This document shows, piece after piece, positions 18,191-28,913 of a DNA stretch of 44,910 nucleotides (position 1 is the first letter of the stretch; each line of letters starts with the position of its first letter). The position numbers and the translations under genes are program-made. The notes under the pieces were generated by a model, which worked only from the letters and a program-made list of their open reading frames with translations, ran no database searches and was not told where the DNA came from. The stretch is from a bacterium (lineage in GTDB: Bacteria > Bdellovibrionota_C > UBA2361 > RFPC01). The stretch spans positions 1 through 44,910 of the forward strand of contig RFPC01000012.1 in assembly GCA_009926305.1 (NCBI GenBank), read 5' to 3'.

Positions 18191-20887
18191 ATGTCATGCT
18201 CACAAGAAATCTCCGATTCCCACCTTCTGAATGTTACGAAGCCTGCTCAGTACTTAGGAGGCGAAAAGGGCTCTATCGTCAAAAACGACTCTGAAGTGGC
18301 TTTGCGCATGTGCTTGGCTTTTCCAGATACCTATGAGGTGGGAATGTCTCACACGGGGTATCAGATTTTGTATGACCTCATCAATCGGGATGAAAGATTC
18401 TGGGCCGAACGCGCCTACACCCCGCTACCAGACATGGAGCAAATCCTCAGAAAAAATCAAATGAGGCTCACCTCACTTGAATCAAAGCGACCACTGTCTG
18501 AGTTTGAGATAGTAGGGTTTAGCCTTCAGTATGAACTGTGCATGTCAGGAATCTTACAAATGCTTGATCTTGGAGGGATTCCTCTTCTGCAATCTGAGAG
18601 GAAAGAAAAAGATCCTCTTATCATTGGCGGAGGTCCCGTTGCATATCATCCTGAGCCCTTTGCTGATTTCTTTGACTGCTTTCTTATAGGAGACGGCGAA
18701 GAGCTCGTACCTGAATTTCTTGAAGCGGTCTTACGCTGCAAACAGCTAACACGGCACGAACAATTAAGAGAATTTTCTCGAATTCCTGGGGTGTATGTTC
18801 CGGCCTTTTTTAGTCCAAACTACGGAGAAGACCGCTCCTTTCAAGGATTCACGCCTCGCTACTCAGACTATACAGCAGTAAATCGCAGAGTACTGGCATC
18901 CCTAGAGAATGCACCCTTTCCCAAACAGCCTATTGTACCGAATATTAAAACCGTGCACGACCGTCTGGCCGTTGAGGTGATGCGTGGATGCGTTCGTGGC
19001 TGCCGCTTTTGTCAAGCAGGATACCTCTATCGACCGCAACGTGAGAGGGCTCCAGAGGAGATTAGAGAACTCACCCGCGAAGCACTTCAACAAACGGGCT
19101 TTGAAGAGCTATCTCTTTTATCGCTCAGCACCGCTGATTACTGCAGCATTCTGCCTCTGCTCAAAATCCTGAAAGACGAATTCGCAGAAAGTGATAAGCT
19201 CGCAATTTCATTCCCTTCTACGAGAGTTGATGCTCTGACTCCCGAACTCTTACAAGAGGTTCAGCCTGTTCGACGCACCGGTTTTACCATGGCTCCTGAA
19301 GCTGGCACGCAACGACTGAGGGATGTGATCAATAAGGGGGTAACCGATCAACAAATTATTGATACCTGTAAAAATGTTCTGAAGCTTGGATGGTCAAGCA
19401 TTAAGCTCTATTTCATGATTGGACTGCCGACGGAAACCGATGAAGATATCTTGGGAATTCTCGATATCGCTACTCGAGTTCAAGCACTTACGCGCAAAGG
19501 TCAGCAAATTACCATTAGTGTCTCGACCCATGTTCCAAAACCTCATACCCCATTCCAATGGTCAGAGCAGATATCAGAAGTCGAGACGAAAAGAAGACAA
19601 GAGCTCCTCTTCCGTGAGCTCAGGAAAAGAAAGATTTTTTATCGATACCATGAATCTCAGGCGAGCTTTCTTGAAGGAGTATTTGCACGTGGTGATAGAA
19701 AACTGAGCGCCGTGATACTTAAAGCATACCAACTAGGAACACGCCAAGATGGATGGATGGAGCAACTTTCTTTCGATCTCTGGATGCAGGCCTTCGAAGC
19801 GTGTCAAATAGACCCTCATGGTTATCTCAGAGAAAAATCGGGCGATGATCCGCTTCCATGGGATCATATCAGTTGTGATATCCCAAAGCGCTGGTTCCTC
19901 AAGGAATGGCAGAGGGCCCAGCGTACAACAACAACACCAGACTGTTTAACCAAGAGCTGTTCTACCTGTGGATCGTGCGACTATGATGGGGTGAGAAATG
20001 TTCTCTTTGATCGAGCCCGAAGCGAAAGTCGCCTCGCAATTATCTCTCCTCCCTGGCAACCAATACTTGATAAAAAGGCGGAGGGGGCATCAAACGACGA
20101 AATCCTGCAACTATTGAAAGGCTCTAGACAAAGGACAGCGACTCCAAAGCCAGAACAGTCTGTATATACACTGAAAGAGTACTTAAAAACCGAGATGGCT
20201 GAGGATGGCGTCCGAGGCGTGGCTGTACCAGCCGAATCCGCATTTCGCTATCGTCTTACTTACACGAAAATTGGTCATGCTCGATTTCATGGACATCTTG
20301 AAATGGCATCAATGCTCTTTCGTTCAGCGCGGAGAGCGAATTTACCAGTCGCCTTCTCTCGAGGATTTACTCCAAGACCTCGATTTGCATTCGGGCCACC
20401 AATCCAGCTTGGAGTTGAAAGCTCTGCTGAACTTGTTGACGTCATCCTCACTGAAAAAATGAACGAAGACACGATGGTCCGAGAACTCAACAAAACACTC
20501 CCGGAGGGCCTTTCAATTATTCAGGCTGAATCCCTACCCCGAAATGCGAAAAATATTCCTGCTCATAATGTCACTTCCACATTCATTGCTCGTCTTTCAG
20601 GCACTTCTTTGTCTCCGCATTCCGAAAAGGTGCTAGCAACGACATCACTTGTTGAAATGATCGGTCCAAACTGGCAAGGCAAAACTGTCACGCGACGGAG
20701 AAAGCAAAAAGAAACAACTCATGCAATTACTGACTTCGTAAAGGATGTCCATCCAGAAGACCACCAAGTGCGGTTTTCTATTACTTCTCTTCCGGATGGA
20801 AGGACTCTAAAGCCCCTTGAGGTCGTTGATTCTTTAACGGGACTTTCAGCTATAGAATTCTTGGTGAGAAAAGTCAGCTCGATATAG
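18191..20887 (+). CDS. radical SAM protein fused to DUF2344 domain (TIGR03960-type)
   Basis: 898 residues from the ATG at 18191, which is preceded by GGAGG and AAAGG. Earlier starts at 18149 (GTG) and 18173 have poorer spacing. The N-terminal part resembles the B12-binding-like region of this family. The radical SAM domain has CVRGCRFC with Cys267, Cys271 and Cys274, followed by FTMAPEAGTQRLRDVINKG. A second cysteine group, SCSTCGSCDYDG (near residue 590), may hold another metal site. The C-terminal 220 residues start at FRYRLTYTKIGHARFHGHLE and match the DUF2344 domain (TIGR03936). Members often neighbour ribonuclease G and ribosomal protein genes, but not here. The reaction is unknown; a link to RNA modification is inferred from gene neighbourhoods in other genomes. 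It diverges from smc. Confidence 0.9.
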   Translation: MSCSQEISDSHLLNVTKPAQYLGGEKGSIVKNDSEVALRMCLAFPDTYEVGMSHTGYQILYDLINRDERFWAERAYTPLPDMEQILRKNQMRLTSLESKRPLSEFEIVGFSLQYELCMSGILQMLDLGGIPLLQSERKEKDPLIIGGGPVAYHPEPFADFFDCFLIGDGEELVPEFLEAVLRCKQLTRHEQLREFSRIPGVYVPAFFSPNYGEDRSFQGFTPRYSDYTAVNRRVLASLENAPFPKQPIVPNIKTVHDRLAVEVMRGCVRGCRFCQAGYLYRPQRERAPEEIRELTREALQQTGFEELSLLSLSTADYCSILPLLKILKDEFAESDKLAISFPSTRVDALTPELLQEVQPVRRTGFTMAPEAGTQRLRDVINKGVTDQQIIDTCKNVLKLGWSSIKLYFMIGLPTETDEDILGILDIATRVQALTRKGQQITISVSTHVPKPHTPFQWSEQISEVETKRRQELLFRELRKRKIFYRYHESQASFLEGVFARGDRKLSAVILKAYQLGTRQDGWMEQLSFDLWMQAFEACQIDPHGYLREKSGDDPLPWDHISCDIPKRWFLKEWQRAQRTTTTPDCLTKSCSTCGSCDYDGVRNVLFDRARSESRLAIISPPWQPILDKKAEGASNDEILQLLKGSRQRTATPKPEQSVYTLKEYLKTEMAEDGVRGVAVPAESAFRYRLTYTKIGHARFHGHLEMASMLFRSARRANLPVAFSRGFTPRPRFAFGPPIQLGVESSAELVDVILTEKMNEDTMVRELNKTLPEGLSIIQAESLPRNAKNIPAHNVTSTFIARLSGTSLSPHSEKVLATTSLVEMIGPNWQGKTVTRRRKQKETTHAITDFVKDVHPEDHQVRFSITSLPDGRTLKPLEVVDSLTGLSAIEFLVRKVSSI

Positions 20888-20939
20888 AGTGCTATCGCCT
20901 ATTTCAAAAGGGCTTATGAGTAGTCTAGAGCACAAATCT

Positions 20940-21587
20940 CTACGCTCGACGCCCGAGAAGAAAAGAGGATGACTTTCTTCCCTTCTGTGTCGGTTGAACG
21001 GGAGCAGAATTCGATACAACGCGAAAAAATTGCATGGTGTACTCGAGGCCACTAATATACGCCAAGATAATAGCACCGAGTAAGCTCTGAAGACCTATAT
21101 ACTGGGCAGTAATTTGTTGGCGGGACCACTCAAAGAGAGTGATATCCTCAATCAACAGAAAAGTAACTGCAATCACTTGAAGCAATGTTTTCAGCTTTCC
21201 AAGCTCAGCCGCTTGAATGACGACTCCCCTGGTAGCGGCCAAACCACGAAGTCCCGTAATCCACAACTCACGCGCAAGGAGCAAGACAACCATCCATGCT
21301 GGAACAATCACATAGTTTGTTTCTACGGAACGCATGCCGACCAGAGTAATCAAGGGACAGAGGATCAACAACTTATCGATAAGAGGGTCAAGCAACGCAC
21401 CGAAGTCTGTTTCAGCATCAAGTTTGCGAGCCAACCAGCCATCGACCACATCCGTAACCGCAAGTAGAAGAAAAAACATGCTGGTAGACCACCACGGCAA
21501 TTCAGCGCGTATCGCCATAAAAAATAATAACACTGGAATACCGATTAATCGGAGAAGTGAAACAATATTGGGGATCATTATTCTCAT
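20940..21587 (-). CDS. pgsA: CDP-diacylglycerol-glycerol-3-phosphate 3-phosphatidyltransferase
   Basis: 215 residues. A membrane enzyme that makes phosphatidylglycerol phosphate from CDP-diacylglycerol and glycerol-3-phosphate. The CDP-alcohol phosphotransferase signature is complete: D-VVDG-WLAR, then eight residues, then G-ALL-D-PLI-D (about residues 46-69). Several hydrophobic helices surround it, and there is a basic C-terminal tail (QKGRKSSSFLLGRRA). ATG at 21587 with AGGA upstream; a second ATG three codons in is possible. It lies 24 bases downstream of the lytic transglycosylase gene and converges on the radical SAM gene. The PgsA/PgsA2 family has paralogues, so the exact substrate rests on general similarity. 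Confidence 0.9.
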   Translation of the reverse strand: MRIMIPNIVSLLRLIGIPVLLFFMAIRAELPWWSTSMFFLLLAVTDVVDGWLARKLDAETDFGALLDPLIDKLLILCPLITLVGMRSVETNYVIVPAWMVVLLLARELWITGLRGLAATRGVVIQAAELGKLKTLLQVIAVTFLLIEDITLFEWSRQQITAQYIGLQSLLGAIILAYISGLEYTMQFFRVVSNSAPVQPTQKGRKSSSFLLGRRA

Positions 21588-21611
21588 GCTGCTTTATCCT
21601 AAACGTAACTC

Positions 21612-22238
21612 CTAAGCCCCAGCCTCCGCATATAAGCTCTGAAGTTGCAGAACTTTTCGAATATAATTCTGCGTCTCTGAAAATGGTGGTATTCCATTAA
21701 ACTTTTTTACAGCATTTTCTCCAGCATTGTATGCTGCCAACATGATTTTTGTATCCCCATCATATTGCTTCAATAACTTCGACAGAAGTTTGACCCCTCC
21801 CTGTATATTCTGACTGGGCTCGAAAGGATCCTCAATTCCAAGAGACTTGAGATGAAAAGGCATGATCTGCATTAAACCGAGGGCGCCCTTCGGGGAAACA
21901 GCCGCAGGGTCATAGGCAGATTCAACGTGAATGACAGCACGAATAAGAGACGTTTTGACTCCATACTCACGCGCTACTGAATGAATAACTGTAGAGTAGC
22001 GATGTTTAAACAGTCTTGCTGGGGGCCTCTTTCCTCCTCGATACCAAGAGAATCCGCTTTTTCTTCCTTCAAAAATACGAGCCTCTACTCCTGCAGGAGG
22101 AGGCTTTGAAGAGAATCTCACGACCCCGTGGGAGTCTGTGTATACATAAATTTTTCCATCAGCACATACAGTCGACGGGAGGAAGAGTGCTACAATAAGG
22201 AGCAATAGAAAAACAATAGAATATCTGCGGTCTCGCAT
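21612..22238 (-). CDS. secreted lytic transglycosylase (DUF4124 + SLT domain)
   Basis: 208 residues. There is an N-terminal signal peptide, about 1-26 (SIVFLLLLIVALFLPSTVCA). If the cysteine near the end served as a lipobox it would be atypical, so export by signal peptidase I is more likely. Residues about 28-60 (KIYVYTDSHGVVRFSSKPP) match the DUF4124 module. The C-terminal half is a Slt/MltE-type domain with the catalytic glutamate in HVESAYDP, the motif GALGLMQIMP, and AYNAGE. It would cleave peptidoglycan glycan strands with 1,6-anhydro product formation. The start codon and AGGGGT site lie in a hairpin (22237-22266). Co-transcribed with pgsA; it may also relate to flagellar assembly given the neighbouring flagellin, but this is only positional. 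Confidence 0.88.
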   Translation of the reverse strand: MRDRRYSIVFLLLLIVALFLPSTVCADGKIYVYTDSHGVVRFSSKPPPAGVEARIFEGRKSGFSWYRGGKRPPARLFKHRYSTVIHSVAREYGVKTSLIRAVIHVESAYDPAAVSPKGALGLMQIMPFHLKSLGIEDPFEPSQNIQGGVKLLSKLLKQYDGDTKIMLAAYNAGENAVKKFNGIPPFSETQNYIRKVLQLQSLYAEAGA

Positions 22239-22266
22239 TTTTACCCCTAATCTTCAGGGTAAAAAT
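22237..22266. repeat. 10-bp inverted repeat overlapping the transglycosylase start
   Basis: ATTTTTACCC pairs perfectly with GGGTAAAAAT around a ten-base loop. Read on the minus strand, the second arm contains the GGGGTAAAAATG start region of the transglycosylase gene, so the ribosome-binding site and start codon would be paired. It could also be a weak terminator between flagellin A and this gene. Confidence 0.45.
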
Positions 22267-22306
22267 TAGCAAACTCTCTCGGAACCAGCACGTTTTTTCG
22301 AAATTA

Positions 22307-22362
22307 AAAGAAAAAGAGTGATGGGAAGAGACCATCCGCCCCCAGACGGTCCCTTCCATCAC
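22307..22362 (-). terminator. intrinsic terminator of flagellin A
   Basis: On the minus strand GTGATGGAAGGGACC pairs with GGTCTCTTCCCATCAC (about 15 bp, one bulge) across a 14-base loop. It is followed by TCTTTTTCTTTT. This is a strong terminator about 175 bases after the flagellin stop. The conserved CCTCGCTACTT word sits just before it (22368-22378). Confidence 0.8.
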
Positions 22363-22367
22363 CCTGG

Positions 22368-22378
22368 AAGTAGCGAGG
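22368..22378 (-). promoter_or_regulatory. conserved flagellin trailer word, copy A
   Basis: CCTCGCTACTT on the minus strand, 5 bases before the terminator stem of flagellin A. The same 11 bases occur before the terminators of flagellins B and C. In all three, CCAGG follows within eight bases. Confidence 0.6.
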
Positions 22379-22458
22379 TAAAACATCAACAAATGCGTAC
22401 CAGTGGTACAAAATCTCTCATGCCTACTCATCTTTCTGCCTGAGTTGAGAGAATCTTT

Positions 22459-22486
22459 CTCCTTTCCCCCTCTCACTGGAAAGGAG
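22459..22486. repeat. 9-bp inverted repeat in the flagellin A trailer
   Basis: CTCCTTTCC pairs perfectly with GGAAAGGAG around a ten-base loop. An alternative pairing CCCTCTC/GAGAGGG overlaps it, so the two hairpins are mutually exclusive. Next to it, CGGGCG (22495-22500) pairs with CGCCCG (22515-22520). No T-tract is present on either strand, so this is a structured 3' untranslated region rather than a terminator. Confidence 0.4.
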
Positions 22487-22536
22487 AGGGAGACGGGCGA
22501 GAGATGAGTTCTCCCGCCCGAAGCCTATTTTTCAAC

Positions 22537-23397
22537 CTAACTGAGTAGGTTAAGAGCCAATGTCGGCTGCTGGTTTGCTTGGGCAAGAACCGAAGCACCA
22601 GCCTGCTGAAGAATGTTGAGTCGCGTTAATTCAGCCGCTTCTGATGCAACGTCCACATCTCGAATTCGGCTTTCCGCAGCAGCTAGGTTTTCTCTAGCAA
22701 CAGCAAGGTTATTAATCGCAACATTCAATCGAGCTTCTGTTGCACCAAGAGTACCTCGGGTAGAAGCAAGTGACTGAATCGCATTCTGCACCGCATCCAA
22801 AGCCGCGCGAGCTGCCGACTGACCTCCGTCAGTTGTAGACTCGTTGATTGAATACGAGAGTGCTGAACTCCCTGACGATGCAAGTCCGAGCGATGACAAC
22901 GTTCCCTGGACCCCACTAAAGGAGATCTGAGAGGTAGACGTTGAGTCAAAACCAACTTGTAAGGTAAGGGTATTAGAGCCCGATAACAGTTTAACACCGT
23001 TGAACTCTGTTGTTACTGCGATTCGCTCAATCTCTGAAGCAAGTGATACGAATTCATTCGCCAGAGCTGAACGCTGAACCACTGAGAACACACCGTTTGC
23101 GGATTGTTCTGCAAGTTCTGCAAGTCGACTAAGTACGTTTCCAATCTCTCCGAGAGCCGAATCAGCAACCGCAATACTCGAGATACCATCATTAGCATTT
23201 CGAATCGCTACGATACCAATCCTTTGTTCCACACGAAGAGAGTCAGCAATAGCAAGACCAGCCGCATCGTCACTCGCCTTATTAATACGCTGACCAGAAC
23301 TTAGACGTTCAAAGGTTCTTCCTAGTTGGTCAGTCGCTATTCCGAGTCGACGTTGCGCCTGAAGGGACGCGATATTGTTTCCAAGAGTAACAGCCAT
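22537..23397 (-). CDS. flagellin A (compact, no variable domain)
   Basis: 286 residues. Structural protein of the flagellar filament, exported by the flagellar type III system. The conserved N-terminal D0/D1 domain (about 1-140; ERLSSGQRINKASDDAAGLA) and the C-terminal D1/D0 domain (about 200-286; AESRIRDVDVASEAAELTRL, ending QQPTLALNLLS) are joined by a short central part. The surface-exposed D2/D3 domains are therefore essentially absent. A strong AAGGAGG site lies 10 bases before the ATG. It differs from flagellins B and C mainly at the N-terminus (MAVTLGNNIASLQAQRRLG) and C-terminus. A 79-base block (23090-23168) is identical to flagellin B. It has a long leader with a flagellar-type promoter candidate (23560-23588). 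Confidence 0.96.
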   Translation of the reverse strand: MAVTLGNNIASLQAQRRLGIATDQLGRTFERLSSGQRINKASDDAAGLAIADSLRVEQRIGIVAIRNANDGISSIAVADSALGEIGNVLSRLAELAEQSANGVFSVVQRSALANEFVSLASEIERIAVTTEFNGVKLLSGSNTLTLQVGFDSTSTSQISFSGVQGTLSSLGLASSGSSALSYSINESTTDGGQSAARAALDAVQNAIQSLASTRGTLGATEARLNVAINNLAVARENLAAAESRIRDVDVASEAAELTRLNILQQAGASVLAQANQQPTLALNLLS

Positions 23398-24075
23398 CTT
23401 CTTTTCCTCCTTGAAAGCTCACACCAGCACAGCGTCTTTCCATAGACACCGGCAGTTACACTGCTCAAACTGGCGATGAGGGCCACATCTTTAATTAGTT
23501 GCGAATGAAGTCTCTTTCTGTAGGTCAGTGACAATCCACCCGCATCACACACAAAGAGGGGGACGGCATAGCTTGAAAAATACTTAAGAGAAAAATGACT
23601 TGCTTGATTTGTTTCAAACCTTTCAAACTCTTAGCGATACTCTTTTCAAAGTACGTTACTCTCAGTTTGTCTAATTGTCAGTTCGCAAATGTATTCTCCG
23701 TAAATCAGTAACGCTTGATACGGTAGGCGCCAGAGTTATTAAACTCATATTCCCTTATGGTGGAAATTCTTAAGAACAACTACCATTTTTCATGATCGCT
23801 CCATTTTCGATTTCAGAATTTTTCTTGCCAAGACGTAACCCCTTTTAAGGCGGAGGATGTAGTTCCTCAACAGTCTTTCACTGCCCCAGACGTTTTTCTG
23901 TGAATGAGATTGTGTTGAGTATTCGCTGACGGACAGTAGCGGGAAAATTCATATTTTCCCATGTAAATTGCTAAATTGGAGTCAGATAGATCGAGTTTCT
24001 TCGGTCTAGATCTCGGTATCAGCCGGTCAAGGATCGACTAGTTGCTGGCTCTGTATAATCAAGGAGGAAAAAGCC
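23398..24075. other. divergent flagellin A/B control region
   Basis: 678 bases with no credible gene. On the minus side there is a CTTAAG-N15-GCCG element (23588-23560) about 160 bases upstream of flagellin A. On the plus side a CTTAAG also occurs at 23769-23774, but the sequence 15 bases downstream (TCATGATC) does not match a flagellar -10. A TATAAT at 24054-24059 lies too close to the flagellin B ribosome-binding site to be its promoter. The region is AT-rich, with TTTTCC/GGAAAA-like short repeats (about 23942-23960). Confidence 0.5.
23560..23588 (-). promoter_or_regulatory. candidate sigma-28-type promoter of flagellin A
   Basis: On the minus strand CTTAAG, 15 bases, then GCCGTCCC. The flagellar sigma factor recognises TAAA-N15-GCCGATAA; here TAA and GCCG are kept with exact spacing. 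Flagellin C has a similar CTTAAG-N15-ACCGTTAC. The match is partial, and the leader would be about 150 bases. Confidence 0.4.
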
Positions 24076-24936
24076 ATGGGTATTACTCTTGGTACTAACA
24101 TATCATCCCTTCAGGGTCAGAGGAGACTCGCCCTGAGCACTGACGCTCTAACGCGCACGTACGAAAAGCTGAGTTCAGGTCAGCGTATTAATAAGGCGAG
24201 TGACGATGCAGCTGGTCTTGCGATCGCTGACTCCCTAAGAGCTGACCAACGAATTGCCTCAGTGGCAATTCGAAACGCGAACGACGGTATCTCGACGATT
24301 GCCATTGCTGATTCGGCTCTCGGAGAGATTGGAAACGTACTTAGTCGACTTGCAGAACTTGCAGAACAATCCGCAAACGGTGTTTACTCAAATTCTCAGC
24401 GCTCCGCGCTTCAGAATGAGTTTACTTCACTCGCTTCAGAAATTGAGCGAATTGCTTCGACCACCGTGTTTAACGGGGTTGCTCTCATCTCTGGTGGTGC
24501 CACAACCACTCTCCAGGTCGGCTTTAGTTCTGCCTCTACCTCTCAGATTCAGTTCTCAGGGGTACAAGGAACACTAGCAGCGCTCGGATTGGCTACTACG
24601 GGGTCTTCAGCCCTGAATTACTCAATTACGGCAGCCGGAAGTGATGCAGCTCAGTCGGCATCACGATTTGCACTTGATGCAGTAAACTCTGCGATTACCT
24701 CTCTTGCGGTACAGCGCGGAAATCTCGGTGCAACTGAGGCTCGTCTCAGTGTAGCGATTAAAAATCTCTCGATCTCTCGAGAGAATTTCGCTGCTGCTGA
24801 AAGCCGCATTCGTGATGTGGATGTAGCTTCAGAATCTGCTGAGCTGACTCGGTTGAATATTCTTCAACAGGCTGGTGCAGCAGTGCTTGCACAGGCTAAC
24901 CAGCAGCCACAGCTAGCATTATCCCTAATTGGATAA
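24076..24936 (+). CDS. flagellin B (compact, no variable domain)
   Basis: 286 residues, same architecture and length as flagellins A and C. The N-terminal domain is MGITLGTNISSLQGQRRLAL... and the C-terminal domain contains AESRIRDVDVASESAELTRL and ends in QQPQLALSLIG. The first 25 residues are identical to flagellin C, so B and C are the closest pair by position and N-terminus. The central region (about 140-200) is divergent among the three. ATG with AAGGAGG about 8 bases upstream. The trailer is long and highly structured (12-bp stem at 24947-25018, then the CCTCGCTACTT word and terminator). Confidence 0.96.
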   Translation: MGITLGTNISSLQGQRRLALSTDALTRTYEKLSSGQRINKASDDAAGLAIADSLRADQRIASVAIRNANDGISTIAIADSALGEIGNVLSRLAELAEQSANGVYSNSQRSALQNEFTSLASEIERIASTTVFNGVALISGGATTTLQVGFSSASTSQIQFSGVQGTLAALGLATTGSSALNYSITAAGSDAAQSASRFALDAVNSAITSLAVQRGNLGATEARLSVAIKNLSISRENFAAAESRIRDVDVASESAELTRLNILQQAGAAVLAQANQQPQLALSLIG

Positions 24937-24946
24937 ACTGAAATAA

Positions 24947-25018
24947 ATCTGCTCCGATAGGAGAAGCTGCGAAGAGATACTTCCAACTCTCAACTCATCT
25001 TTCGCCATCGGAGCAGAT
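24947..25018 (+). repeat. 12-bp perfect inverted repeat in the flagellin B trailer
   Basis: ATCTGCTCCGAT (24947-24958) pairs perfectly with ATCGGAGCAGAT (25007-25018), enclosing 48 bases, just after the flagellin B stop codon. No T-tract directly follows, and the real terminator is 100 bases further on. This looks like an mRNA-protective or regulatory structure. Confidence 0.55.
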
Positions 25019-25102
25019 CTTCCCCTCTCCTCTTTATAGGGGAACTACTCTTGGCTAGGCACCAAGGGATTCTACAAGCGAAGGTAGGTGCTGAATTTAG
25101 TG

Positions 25103-25113
25103 CCTCGCTACTT
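25103..25113 (+). promoter_or_regulatory. conserved flagellin trailer word, copy B
   Basis: CCTCGCTACTT inside TTTAGTGCCTCGCTACTTTC, ending 5 bases before the terminator stem. With copy C it shares the longer GTGCCTCGCTACTTT. Confidence 0.6.
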
Positions 25114-25118
25114 TCTGC

Positions 25119-25163
25119 TCCAGGCTCTGCTTCTTTCCACGAAGTCGAGCCTGGATTTTTTTT
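25119..25163 (+). terminator. intrinsic terminator of flagellin B
   Basis: TCCAGGCTC pairs with GAGCCTGGA (9 bp), with an inner CTTC/GAAG extension, followed by eight T residues (25156-25163). Classic rho-independent form. Confidence 0.9.
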
Positions 25164-25222
25164 CTAACCCCCTGAGTTTTCAATAGTTTCAAGAAATATG
25201 GGTATTACCCGTATATTTTGCT

Positions 25223-25249
25223 TAAGAAAATCTACGGCTCTACCGTTAC
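25223..25249 (+). promoter_or_regulatory. candidate sigma-28-type promoter of flagellin C
   Basis: TAAG (within CTTAAG), 15 bases, then ACCGTTAC, compared with TAAA-N15-GCCGATAA. Five of eight -10 positions agree, with exact spacing. The predicted leader is about 230 bases and contains two hairpins. Confidence 0.4.
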
Positions 25250-25414
25250 CTCATTTGTAAGGATAAGTAGTCGTGAAGTTCTTACCACGCTGGCAGAAAC
25301 ATTCCTGTTTCGAAAGCAACTCGCAGTACCGAAGGCAGTACCAGAAAAGTAGCGGGGAAAGACCTCAGAAACCTTTCCCATTGAAAATTAGTGAACTTAC
25401 GCCCACGAATCGAG

Positions 25415-25457
25415 CTGCAATGGATTGCAGTATATCTCTAGCGGTATGAGCTGCTAG
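25415..25457 (+). repeat. two small hairpins in the flagellin C leader
   Basis: CTGCAAT-GG-ATTGCAG (25415-25430) is a perfect 7-bp stem; as a two-base loop is tight, the innermost pair is probably open. CTAGC (25438-25442) pairs with GCTAG (25453-25457). They end 31 bases before the flagellin C start. A role in translation control is possible but not shown. Confidence 0.4.
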
Positions 25458-25488
25458 TGAGACGATTCTTTATTTCACGGAGGAAACA

Positions 25489-26349
25489 ATGGGTATCACA
25501 CTTGGCACAAACATATCTTCTTTACAGGGTCAAAGACGACTCGCACTAAGCACTGATGCGCTTAGTCGTACCTTTGAACGTTTAAGCTCAGGTCAGAGAA
25601 TCAACCGAGCTGCAGATGATGCGGCTGGATTAGCAATCGCTGACTCCCTGAGAGCCGATCAACGAATAGCAAATGTTGCTATTCGAAATGCAAATGATGG
25701 AATATCAACGATTGCCATTGCTGATTCGGCACTAGGAGAGATCGGAAACGTTCTTAGTCGACTTGCAGAACTTGCAGAACAGTCAGCTAACGGAGTGTAT
25801 TCGAATGACCAACGTTCAGCACTTCAAAACGAATTTCTTTCTCTTGCATCCGAGATTGAGCGAATTGCTGTCACCACCGTTTTTAACGGAGTAAACCTTC
25901 TTTCTGGTGGTGGTACGACGACGCTTCAAGTTGGGTTTGATTCAGCTTCAACATCGCAGATATCATTTGCTGGAGTTGAAGGAACCCTACAAGCTCTTGG
26001 CCTTGCGAACACTGGAAGTTCTGCGATTTCATATTCTATCTCGGCCTCCACTGGAGATGGAGCACAATCCGCTGCACGTGCTGCACTTGATGCAGTCAAT
26101 AATGCAATTAGCTCTCTAGCAATACAGAGAGGGAATCTCGGTGCTTCAGAAGCGCGATTAAGCGTCGCAATCAAGAATCTCTCTGTCTCTCGCGAGAACT
26201 TCGCAGCTGCAGAGAGCCGAATTCGCGACGTTGACGTAGCGGAGGAGTCAGCTGAATTAACGCGACTGAACATTCTTCAGCAGGCTGGTGCTGCCGTTCT
26301 TGCTCAGGCAAATCAGCAACCTCAGCTGGCACTTCAGCTTCTCGGCTAA
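25489..26349 (+). CDS. flagellin C (compact, no variable domain)
   Basis: 286 residues, the same length as A and B. N-terminal domain MGITLGTNISSLQGQRRLAL..., C-terminal domain AESRIRDVDVAEESAELTRL..., ending QQPQLALQLLG. It is tandem to flagellin B. At the DNA level its synonymous choices differ from B even where the proteins agree, so the duplication is not recent. ATG with CGGAGG 7 bases upstream. Minimal linker between the N and C domains, as in the others. Filaments built from several flagellin types are common in bacteria with multiple flagellin genes; which one is major cannot be told from sequence. Confidence 0.96.
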   Translation: MGITLGTNISSLQGQRRLALSTDALSRTFERLSSGQRINRAADDAAGLAIADSLRADQRIANVAIRNANDGISTIAIADSALGEIGNVLSRLAELAEQSANGVYSNDQRSALQNEFLSLASEIERIAVTTVFNGVNLLSGGGTTTLQVGFDSASTSQISFAGVEGTLQALGLANTGSSAISYSISASTGDGAQSAARAALDAVNNAISSLAIQRGNLGASEARLSVAIKNLSVSRENFAAAESRIRDVDVAEESAELTRLNILQQAGAAVLAQANQQPQLALQLLG

Positions 26350-26432
26350 TAGGTTCAATCTGAAGCCTTCGAGGTGAACATTCTCACCCGATTGCTTCAA
26401 GCATAGCCGAACGGAAGTAACAGATTTTGGTG

Positions 26433-26443
26433 CCTCGCTACTT
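26433..26443 (+). promoter_or_regulatory. conserved flagellin trailer word, copy C
   Basis: CCTCGCTACTT in TTTTGGTGCCTCGCTACTTT, 4 bases before the terminator stem of flagellin C. Same word and position as in flagellins A and B. Confidence 0.6.
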
Positions 26444-26447
26444 TTGC

Positions 26448-26485
26448 CCAGGTCTTACTGGGAAACTGGTAAGACCTGGCTTTTA
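26448..26485 (+). terminator. intrinsic terminator of flagellin C
   Basis: CCAGGTCTTAC pairs perfectly with GTAAGACCTGG (11 bp) around a ten-base loop, followed by CTTTT. The T-run is short but the stem is strong. Confidence 0.8.
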
Positions 26486-26541
26486 AACGAGCCCAAATTC
26501 ATAAAGAGCTGAAGGAGATGTTTATGATGCTGCACCCGAAC

Positions 26542-26584
26542 GACATCTTCCTCTGATTCACAAACATGAACAGAGGAAGATGTC
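26542..26584. repeat. 14-bp perfect inverted repeat
   Basis: GACATCTTCCTCTG (26542-26555) pairs perfectly with CAGAGGAAGATGTC (26571-26584), loop 15 bases, followed on the plus strand by TTCTTT. It lies between the flagellin C terminator and the convergent thiolase stop (26610), so it probably serves as a terminator for the thiolase despite the lack of a U-run on the minus strand. Confidence 0.5.
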
Positions 26585-26609
26585 TTCTTTCCATTGATGA
26601 GCAGCTCAC

Positions 26610-27863
26610 CTAATCTCTTGAAAGTAGTACCGCCCCTGCCATAGCTCCAGCGGCACAGATACTGATAACTGCCCGCTTTTTTCCACTCCGTTTTAACTCT
26701 CCCGCAGCACTTAAAAGAAGACGTCCACCCGTTGCAGCAAATGGATGACCGATAGCGATTGAGCCTCCATTCATGTTTATCTTCTCATCAGGGATATCAC
26801 CAAACGGCTTCAATTTTGGATATTTACTCCATCCCTGGGCCCAAGCCATCCGATTGGCAATAACTTGCGCAGAGAATGCCTCATGAATCTCAAAAATATC
26901 TATATCAGCGACACCGAGCCCCTGGCGCTCCAGTAATCTCGGGAGTGCAAGTGCTGGAGCCATTAAGAGCCCATCTTTCGGGTCAATGGCAGCAAACTCT
27001 ATGGCATCGATATATGCGAGGGCTTCTCTTCCCTCTGCCTTTACCTTCTCCTCAGACATGAGGCACACCAGAGAAGAACCGTCTGTGAGCCCACTCGAAT
27101 TTCCTGCTGTCAGAGTCCCCGATGCAGTCCGGTCGAAAACTGGTCGCAGACTAGCGAGCTTTTCTTGTGAAGTTTCCTTTCGAATGAAGTTATCGCTATC
27201 AACTCCCTCAATCGGCGCGATTTCTGTATCAAGTATTCCAGACTCCTTCGCTGCTGCTGCTCTCTTATGACTCCGCAGTGCCCATTCGTCTTGTTCCTCA
27301 CGTTTAATACCGAACTCCTTTGCAGTGAGCTCGCAGTGCTGTCCCATCGTCAGCCCGGTTGAGGGCTCCTTAGGACTCGGAGGAACAGGAAGGAGATACC
27401 CTGGCTTAAATTTCAGCGCCGCTTTCAATTGGTTTTTGAATCCTCGAGCCATACTCAAGTTAAGAAAAAATTTCTCCGCGTCACGCCGAAGAGTCAGCGA
27501 AGGCTGAGACATCGATTCAGCACCACCAGCAAGTCCACTCTGAATTCGCCCACACGCGATTCCATCCCGAATGAGGTTCACTGCGACTAATCCACTGATA
27601 CAATTATTTGATACAAAATGACCAGAGAGACTCTTCGGAAGACTAGAGCGCAAGACAAGCTCACGAGCGGCATTCGGGAATCGAGGATCTAAGAGAACTG
27701 TGCTAAAGGCTATTTCATCGAGGTCTGATGGAGAAAGCTCAAGATCTTCAACTGTCTTCTCCGCCACATGAATCCCGAGATCTAGAAATGAGAACTTTTT
27801 CAAAAGTGTTCCAGCTCGTGTAAATGGAGATCTTTTTCCTCCAACGAGCGCGACTCTGGTCAT
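26610..27863 (-). CDS. acetyl-CoA acyltransferase (FadI-type thiolase)
   Basis: 417 residues. Thiolases cleave 3-ketoacyl-CoA in fatty-acid oxidation or condense acetyl-CoA. The nucleophilic cysteine is Cys88 in SNNCISGLVAVN. GGAESMS, the histidine-containing EIHEAFSAQV, NGGSIAIGHPFAATGGR, and the second active-site cysteine in ICAAGAMAGAVLL are all present. The CAAG form of the last motif resembles FadI rather than the CxGGG biosynthetic thiolases, so a beta-oxidation role is likely. Start ATG with AGGAG 6 bases upstream. No other beta-oxidation gene is adjacent. Confidence 0.88.
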   Translation of the reverse strand: MTRVALVGGKRSPFTRAGTLLKKFSFLDLGIHVAEKTVEDLELSPSDLDEIAFSTVLLDPRFPNAARELVLRSSLPKSLSGHFVSNNCISGLVAVNLIRDGIACGRIQSGLAGGAESMSQPSLTLRRDAEKFFLNLSMARGFKNQLKAALKFKPGYLLPVPPSPKEPSTGLTMGQHCELTAKEFGIKREEQDEWALRSHKRAAAAKESGILDTEIAPIEGVDSDNFIRKETSQEKLASLRPVFDRTASGTLTAGNSSGLTDGSSLVCLMSEEKVKAEGREALAYIDAIEFAAIDPKDGLLMAPALALPRLLERQGLGVADIDIFEIHEAFSAQVIANRMAWAQGWSKYPKLKPFGDIPDEKINMNGGSIAIGHPFAATGGRLLLSAAGELKRSGKKRAVISICAAGAMAGAVLLSRD

Positions 27864-27972
27864 AGCTTACTCCTCAATAGATTTGCATGGTTACCCTACT
27901 CTGAAGACAGATGTCTCACAAGAACATGAGTGCTGACTCATGGTCGCAAGTATTGAGTAGAAATGCAGGTGC

Positions 27973-28012
27973 AAAAAAAAGAGGCACCTCTGGGTCAATG
28001 AGGTGCCTCTTT
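27973..28012 (-). terminator. strong intrinsic terminator
   Basis: Stem AAAGAGGCACCTC/GAGGTGCCTCTTT (13 bp perfect, loop of nine). Read on the minus strand it is followed by TTTTT and more. It ends the transcript of the 290-residue gene (stop at 28041) and insulates it from the thiolase. Confidence 0.9.
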
Positions 28013-28040
28013 AAGGTGAGTTATGAACGACAGAAAACGA

Positions 28041-28913
28041 TTATGCTGCAAAAATCTTCAATTGAGGGTCCTTGAGATGCTCGCAGTTCGGAGGAGTGAA
28101 GATTTTTGGGGAAAGCCGATTAAGGGCTTCCCGCAGAGGGGTAGCAGCGTCAGGTCGAAGCCAGTGAAACTTTCTATCTTGGGCCAGCTTAGTGGCAACT
28201 GGAACTCCCCTCAGCTCTCGTTCACGCTCTTTCGAGCCATTGGAAAGACTTCTTACATCTACCCCATAGGCATTCTCTACAATACATTGGGCAAAGTCGG
28301 CAGCATCTTTCTGCCAATCTCCATAGGGAAGGACTGGACTCACCTGAATTCTTACGGGGATATCAAATCGTGATAAGGAGCGAATCGCTTTTAAACGCTC
28401 CTCCACTCGAGGAAGACTTGGAGTATAACGCTGAGCTATCTTCTCGAGAGGAGTTTCTAATCCAAAATTAACTATACACCGACTTCCCAGGCGTTTAAGT
28501 ACAGGAAGAGAGAGTACCAAGAGTGGCGACCGTGTCTGAATACAGAGGAGACCTGGAGTATATCTTTCAAAGAGCGAGAAAAATTTCATAGACGCATCAA
28601 ATCTTCCCTCAAAAGGATGTAACGGATCATTGTTTACACCGAATATAATCAGCGTGTGTCTTAGTTTTCCCTGAGAGGACAACCGCTTGAGCAGCTTTTC
28701 AAGCTCCCCTCGATGATTTTTTTGCTCTATGAAATACCGACTACGGAGTCGAACCGGCCGCTGCTCTCCCGGAAGTCTTAAAGAAAACTGCTGAAGAGCG
28801 TCGTGGTGTGAGCGTACCACATGTTGACCCACGGCAAGCCCGTTTTCAAAGGAATCCACGGTATAGACGATAGTTTTCGACTGACTGTCTTTCGATAGTT
28901 TTTGTGAGCTCAT
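28041..28913 (-). CDS. radical-SAM-fold protein lacking the cluster cysteines (SplB/Rv2578c-like)
   Basis: 290 residues. The central and C-terminal text follows the pattern of the SplB/PA0069/Rv2578c radical SAM group: IFGVNNDPLHPFE (90-102) corresponds to the family's SGVTDPYQPLE; IQTRSPLLVLSLPVLK to its TKSPLVLRDLDLL; and the LEAIRRL-like VEERLKAIRSL to its counterpart, followed by VRIQVSPVLPYGD. Yet the N-terminal part, where the CxxxCxxC cluster motif should lie, has no cysteine at all; the first is Cys124. It is therefore probably catalytically different or inactive as a radical SAM enzyme. The ATG has GGAGG 4-5 bases upstream, and the gene has its own strong terminator, so it looks expressed and maintained rather than decayed. 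Role unknown. Confidence 0.65.
   Translation of the reverse strand: MSSQKLSKDSQSKTIVYTVDSFENGLAVGQHVVRSHHDALQQFSLRLPGEQRPVRLRSRYFIEQKNHRGELEKLLKRLSSQGKLRHTLIIFGVNNDPLHPFEGRFDASMKFFSLFERYTPGLLCIQTRSPLLVLSLPVLKRLGSRCIVNFGLETPLEKIAQRYTPSLPRVEERLKAIRSLSRFDIPVRIQVSPVLPYGDWQKDAADFAQCIVENAYGVDVRSLSNGSKERERELRGVPVATKLAQDRKFHWLRPDAATPLREALNRLSPKIFTPPNCEHLKDPQLKIFAA

Follow-up and report, generated by a model that had tools for sequence, protein, structure and literature searches.

A conserved word before flagellin terminators in a Bdellovibrionota_C gene cluster and its likely complementary partner in flagellin leaders

Results

The window analyzed here, the whole 44,910-nucleotide stretch of contig RFPC01000012.1 (assembly GCA_009926305.1, lineage Bdellovibrionota_C), carries three flagellin genes that we call A, B, and C, of which B and C are tandem copies with 88% identity (Table 1). 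The 11-base word CCTCGCTACTT has three exact copies in the window, one in the 3' trailer of each of these genes, at the positions and on the strands reported in an earlier note made from the sequence alone; the matches to PF00669 agree with its naming of the host genes as flagellins. The word starts 158 (A), 166 (B), and 83 (C) bases after the stop codon and precedes a terminator stem in all three trailers, as that note described, at a spacing of about 2–6 bases rather than the claimed 4–5. CCAGG follows within eight bases in 3/3 trailers, and the longer GTGCCTCGCTACTTT is common to B and C, both as previously described. Assuming independence and trailers of these lengths, about 7e-7 11-mers common to the three would be expected by chance. 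With one mismatch allowed, the window contains seven matches against 0.9 expected, including a near match at 25347-25357 on the minus strand which is the complementary leader word of gene C described below.

The genome is a draft of 2.99 Mb in 281 contigs and is 96% complete. It contains seven exact copies of CCTCGCTACTT versus six of a reversed control pattern, and the four copies outside the cluster (L001-L004) are therefore at chance level; no copy was found near the other flagellin-domain genes of the genome. A flagellin search across 38 genomes yielded orthologous clusters in relatives, and the word recurs in their flagellin trailers within the genus (G001, G002), within the family (G003, G004, G005), and in other families (G006, G008, G011, and the A-type trailers of G010 and G018). 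In 29 genomes of the order, RCCTCGCTACTTYY has 37 matches versus 16 for the control, 22 of which lie within flagellin trailers by our count. The remaining 15, close to the control level and mostly inside long open frames where examined, were taken as chance matches rather than real sites. The rest of the class gave only three matches of the word. Among 84,980 species genomes, the longer form TTTAGTRCCTCGCTACTTT has eight exact matches, seven of them to flagellin-cluster contigs of this order; the eighth, in Aquimarina, is inside an apparent coding sequence and was read as chance. Tested for commonness near unrelated terminators, the word is thus only at chance level outside flagellin trailers, and, tested for loss among relatives, it is kept in flagellin trailers across several families of the order.

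The sequence surrounding the word depends on the type of trailer. In the B-type trailers of most relatives, a hairpin (GGUGCUAAAUUUAGUGCC) precedes the word, which is followed by the terminator, while the trailers of window gene C and its G002 counterpart have no hairpin before the word. In A-type trailers, ACCUCGCUACUU is invariant in nine genes and is followed by a terminator whose stem shows compensatory changes at 13 of 16 pairs; the terminator loop GGGGCG(G/A)A, at 22335-22342 in the window, is invariant while the stem turns over. This loop may pair with the word as a pseudoknot over five pairs, both sides being invariant, or may bind something else. In comparison across relatives, the stems are kept as structure and the word as sequence. 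Because the word is conserved in orthologous trailers while the stems change, and is at chance level elsewhere, selection on the word itself, proposed in the earlier note, is well supported by these alignments. The tandem arrangement and 88% identity of B and C could suggest that the word is a remnant of a recent trailer duplication or gene conversion; this explanation is already contradicted by conservation, the word surviving across families in which all stems and the remaining trailer sequence have been replaced and being present in the diverged gene A as well, and we consider it scarcely credible.

A likely partner of the word, missed by the earlier note, is GTAGCG(A/G)GG, located in the long 5' leaders of B- and C-type flagellins about 135–200 nucleotides (nt) upstream of the start codon. 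In an unbiased word count, GTAGCG is the commonest 6-mer outside ribosome-binding-site words (15/19 B/C leaders), and the commonest trailer 6-mers are pieces of CCTCGCTACTT, the reverse complement of the leader word. The most frequent leader 6-mer has, by our rough estimate, a chance of about 0.002 of being complementary to one of the seven most frequent trailer 6-mers. Each side shows almost only one orientation: leaders have GTAGCG (one also CGCTAC) and trailers CGCTAC. Nearly all B/C leaders of relatives retain GTAGCG(A/G)G, and the leader and trailer words are both conserved across families f1, f2, f4, and f7. The only element in a consensus fold of all leaders is a small hairpin adjoining the leader word.

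An inverted pair of related words does flank B and C, and the two words could be oppositely oriented double-stranded DNA sites, at which a DNA-binding protein would cause looping or a roadblock or a recombinase would cause inversion. We judge this improbable: in genus g1 the leader GCGGG faces a trailer complement GCGAG, a G-U difference that is tolerable in RNA but makes the two unequal as DNA sites, and the surrounding letters form part of RNA structures, namely the terminator, the hairpin of B-type trailers, and the leader hairpin. No relative was noticed with a gene inverted between its promoter and terminator, although no search for one was made.

Putative sigma-28-like promoters (CTTAAG-N15-GCCGT) are found upstream of the leader word in most genes, so the leader word is probably transcribed. 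The putative promoter of C, which matches a consensus shared with relatives, would produce a leader of about 240 nt that includes the leader word; no promoter was recognized for window gene B. In most leaders, those of relatives among them, a candidate CsrA arrangement is also present, with ARGGA in the loop of a hairpin and either ACGGAGGA or AAGGAGGA at the ribosome-binding site. The combination typical of CsrA-FliW-controlled leaders, A(N)GGA in a hairpin loop with GGA over the ribosome-binding site, is accordingly present in gene B and most relatives; the hairpin motif is degenerate in gene C. csrA (C3:33737-33895) and fliW (C3:34192-34542) are both encoded, close together on contig 3, and no match to Hfq was found in this 96% complete genome.

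Three further observations concern the leaders. A-type leaders share TGTGTGTG, followed in several relatives by GATGCGGGTGGA (23535-23552, minus strand, in the window). In the B-type leader of the close relatives L058 and L059, CCTCGCTAG lies upstream of GTAGCGGG, so that local pairing of the leader word could be in competition with the trailer. At another locus, L140 (G011:C118), two flagellin genes lie side by side, and the short spacer ahead of the second contains a leader-type word, AGAAGTAGCGAGGC.

In the 13 genes that have a leader word as well as a trailer word, the core mostly forms 8–13 or more continuous pairs with energies of -11 to -24 kcal/mol, gene C having a predicted helix of 13 pairs and -21 kcal/mol. 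For a 9-pair helix, 95% of cells are paired versus 29–59% when slid. An ungapped helix search over the full length of leaders and trailers gave the word pair as the best leader-trailer helix in 9/13 genes. In individual cases, letters beyond the core also match: in gene B of G004 (leader UGUAGCGAGG, trailer CCUCGCUACA), in gene C of G003, which has 13 Watson-Crick pairs, a trailer C standing opposite a leader G (G-C for A-U), and in G010 (leader GUAGCAGG, trailer CUUGCUAC).

Several results weigh against leader-trailer pairing or against its generality. Nine A-type leaders contain neither GTAGCG nor CGCTAC, leaving gene A without a leader partner, and G018 has trailer words with no leader partner. 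For window gene B, the ungapped search ranks another helix higher, and local structure is predicted to occupy the leader word. A mismatch in the pairing core occurs in one G011 copy, and the G010 leader match has, by our estimate, about a 6% chance of occurring at random somewhere in the leader. Only two pairs are changed on both sides (G010 and gene C of G003), a number reached in 135/500 shuffles. Because the core hardly varies, covariation proves no pairing. Finally, cis leader-trailer combinations are no better paired than mixed ones (P 0.70, permutation), and cis pairing is therefore not singled out. Overall, complementarity and conservation suggest leader-trailer pairing well but do not prove it.

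The same trailers were weighed for an RNA-binding-protein site or part of a 3'-end-processing signal, the similarity to the leaders being accidental or otherwise caused. The core CTCGCTACTT hardly varies and persists in trailer A despite the lack of a leader partner there, and the word in trailer A and its 3' half in trailer C are predicted to be mostly single-stranded, all of which such a site could explain. It would leave unexplained that the leaders carry the reverse complement on one strand as their top word outside the ribosome-binding site, and that extension letters track their partner in G003 and G004; we regard this explanation as unlikely, although it deserves more weight than the other alternatives considered here.

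A conserved seed directly before an intrinsic terminator, which is the usual anatomy of small RNAs derived from the 3' untranslated region (UTR), is found in these trailers, and the seed is the same in all three. The trailers could thus release a small RNA with the word as seed, its main targets being other messenger RNAs (mRNAs) and the flagellin leaders minor targets or none. 3'UTR-derived small RNAs also exist in Hfq-free bacteria. However, the lack of an Hfq match in the genome speaks against this possibility, as does the genome-wide count of GTAGCGRGGRAAA with one mismatch, which at 17 is below the control (23), no systematic target search having been made; we find it distinctly unlikely. 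The earlier note had suggested an RNA-binding protein or a small RNA as the partner of the word; nothing we found supports either as a separate partner, and the sequence points to the flagellin leaders instead.

Table 1. Positions of the flagellin genes and of the putative RNA and promoter elements around them in the window, with the distinct trailer element of family f11
Feature	Position	Strand	Remarks
Flagellin A	22537..23397	-	Open reading frame, 286 amino acids; PF00669 match 22969-23379 (-)
Flagellin B	24076..24936	+	Open reading frame, 286 amino acids; PF00669 match 24094-24501
Flagellin C	25489..26349	+	286 amino acids; PF00669 match 25507-25914
Trailer word, gene A	22368..22378	-	CCTCGCTACTT; ACCTCGCTACTT invariant among A-type trailers
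Trailer word, gene B	25103..25113	+	CCTCGCTACTT, exact copy
Trailer word, gene C	26433..26443	+	CCTCGCTACTT, exact copy
Leader word, gene B	23935..23943	+	AGTAGCGGG; reverse complement of the trailer word, one pair being G-U
Leader word, gene C	25345..25357	+	AAAAGTAGCGGGG; 13-base complementarity to the trailer word of C (CCTCGCTACTTTT), one pair being G-U
Leader hairpin, gene B	23941..23960	+	GGGAAAATTCATATTTTCCC; overlaps the 3' end of the B leader word
Leader hairpin, gene C	25355..25379	+	GGGAAAG...CTTTCCC; overlaps the 3' end of the C leader word
Hairpin before the word of B	25087..25104	+	GGTGCTGAATTTAGTGCC; conserved among B-type trailers, its closing letters being the first two of the word
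Intrinsic terminator of A	22311..22365	-	Stem kept by compensatory changes in relatives
Intrinsic terminator of B	25119..25163	+	
Intrinsic terminator of C	26448..26484	+	
Sigma-28-like promoter of A	23563..23588	-	CTTAAG-N15-GCCGT
Sigma-28-like promoter of C	25221..25246	+	CTTAAG-N15-ACCGT
Candidate CsrA-binding hairpin, leader of B	24026..24038	+	GTCAAGGATCGAC; ARGGA in the loop
Ribosome-binding site of B	24060..24069	+	CAAGGAGGAA; overlaps an AAGGA CsrA-like motif
Ribosome-binding site of C	25474..25486	+	TTCACGGAGGAAA; overlaps an ACGGA CsrA-like motif
Trailer element of family f11	L070:945-1204, L071:2646-2905, L075:2963-3252, L076:2882-3141, L080:2194-2453		Outside the window

Another family of the order, f11, has a different element in the trailer that follows its first flagellin gene; this element is highly conserved and structured, about 150 nt long, and ends in a terminator (GCGACAAAGGACCU...CCGGGCCGGGAGUUGCUC...GCGGUUGCCGGG...CACGUUGUUUG...AAGUCCUUUGUCGUGGGGUGCGG). 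It has no Rfam match in the two loci searched (L070 and L076).

Discussion

From the positions, conservation, strand bias, and complementarity of the two words, we infer pairing in the cell and an effect of that pairing on flagellin expression. We lean towards the view that the trailer word is a base-pairing seed for GUAGCG(A/G)GG in the leaders of B- and C-type flagellins, in cis or in trans, which tunes the amounts of flagellins. The seed would be displayed near the end of the flagellin mRNA, directly before the terminator and, in most B-type trailers, after a small hairpin. It could pair within one mRNA, joining its 5' and 3' ends, between flagellin mRNAs, or as a released 3' fragment. Because the genome has no Hfq match, pairing inside a single mRNA or among abundant sister mRNAs is favored over a typical Hfq-bound small RNA, and at least gene A is favored to act in trans, on B and C, because its trailer has the word and its leader has no partner. 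Trailer-leader pairing would disrupt the lowest pairs of the GGGAAA/UUUCCC leader hairpin, which could alter leader structure, mRNA stability or decay, or the access of CsrA and ribosomes, and hence translation. The word may in this way control mRNA life or translation, as the earlier note had supposed for mRNA life, and a role in 3' end formation, also raised there, is possible. The result would be that the amounts of flagellins are tuned or balanced on top of CsrA-FliW control.

A broader model, which we offer more tentatively, is the existence of an order-wide network in which the tails of all three cluster flagellins share one seed that pairs with the B/C leaders, so that each message would sense its own abundance and that of its sisters, independently of Hfq and layered on CsrA-FliW. 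Few cases of functional 5'-3' UTR pairing are known in bacteria and comparative support for them is rare. Here, both halves are short and nearly invariant and recur across families, in several genes of a genome, and the host gene is among the most highly expressed and tightly balanced genes of a motile cell. This makes the control of leaders by a bacterium's own mRNA tails directly testable, and suggests a second layer over CsrA-FliW flagellin homeostasis.

Rfam covariance models run on window positions 20500-28500 returned only ylbH (E 3.3, 17.6 bits versus a cut-off of 50) and, in the loci of six relatives, no match at gathering scores. No flagellin with conserved tail-to-leader pairing away from the ribosome-binding site turned up in a limited literature search. 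The candidate element matches no described system in full, its putative partner being neither a ribosome-binding site nor a coding sequence and its seed being common to three paralogs. The leaders of B. subtilis hag (PMC6529632) and C. jejuni flaA (PMC4894983) are controlled through CsrA-FliW sites; they resemble the leaders studied here in the ANGGA hairpin and the GGA motif on the ribosome-binding site, and csrA and fliW lie close together in our genome. In contrast, the portions of those reports consulted describe no 3'-trailer partner (PMC6529632, PMC4894983), and our leaders are far longer than the 45-nt flaA leader as given there and contain an extra complementary word.

FliX is an Hfq-bound small RNA from the 3'UTR of E. 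coli fliC that pairs inside coding sequences (PMC10578931). Chimeric RNAs that join the 3' end of fliC to its 5' part have been described, and FliX overproduction lowers flagellin (PMC10578931). The arrangement is alike, since both involve the 3' end of a sigma-28-dependent flagellin mRNA (PMC10578931). Here, however, the putative partner lies in the 5' leader, and the genome yielded no match to Hfq. OppZ and CarZ of Vibrio cholerae reportedly use an Hfq/RNase E route in a gammaproteobacterium. They resemble our proposal in that, in the part of the report available, a transcript 3' end feeds back on its own mRNA through base pairing by a 3'UTR-derived small RNA (PMC7398697); they concern other genes and have no word shared by several paralogous mRNAs.

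Control of the kind that we propose for the flagellin B and C mRNAs is known for icaR of Staphylococcus aureus, in which the 5'UTR and 3'UTR base-pair, a 3' motif UCCCCUG pairing with the Shine-Dalgarno region (PMC3868564). Conserved complementary motifs in the 5' and 3' UTRs of the same mRNA are likewise found in B and C, not in A. The flagellin 3' motif differs in that its partner is not the Shine-Dalgarno region but a site about 135–200 nt before the start codon that adjoins a leader hairpin, and in that the word is shared by three paralogous mRNAs.
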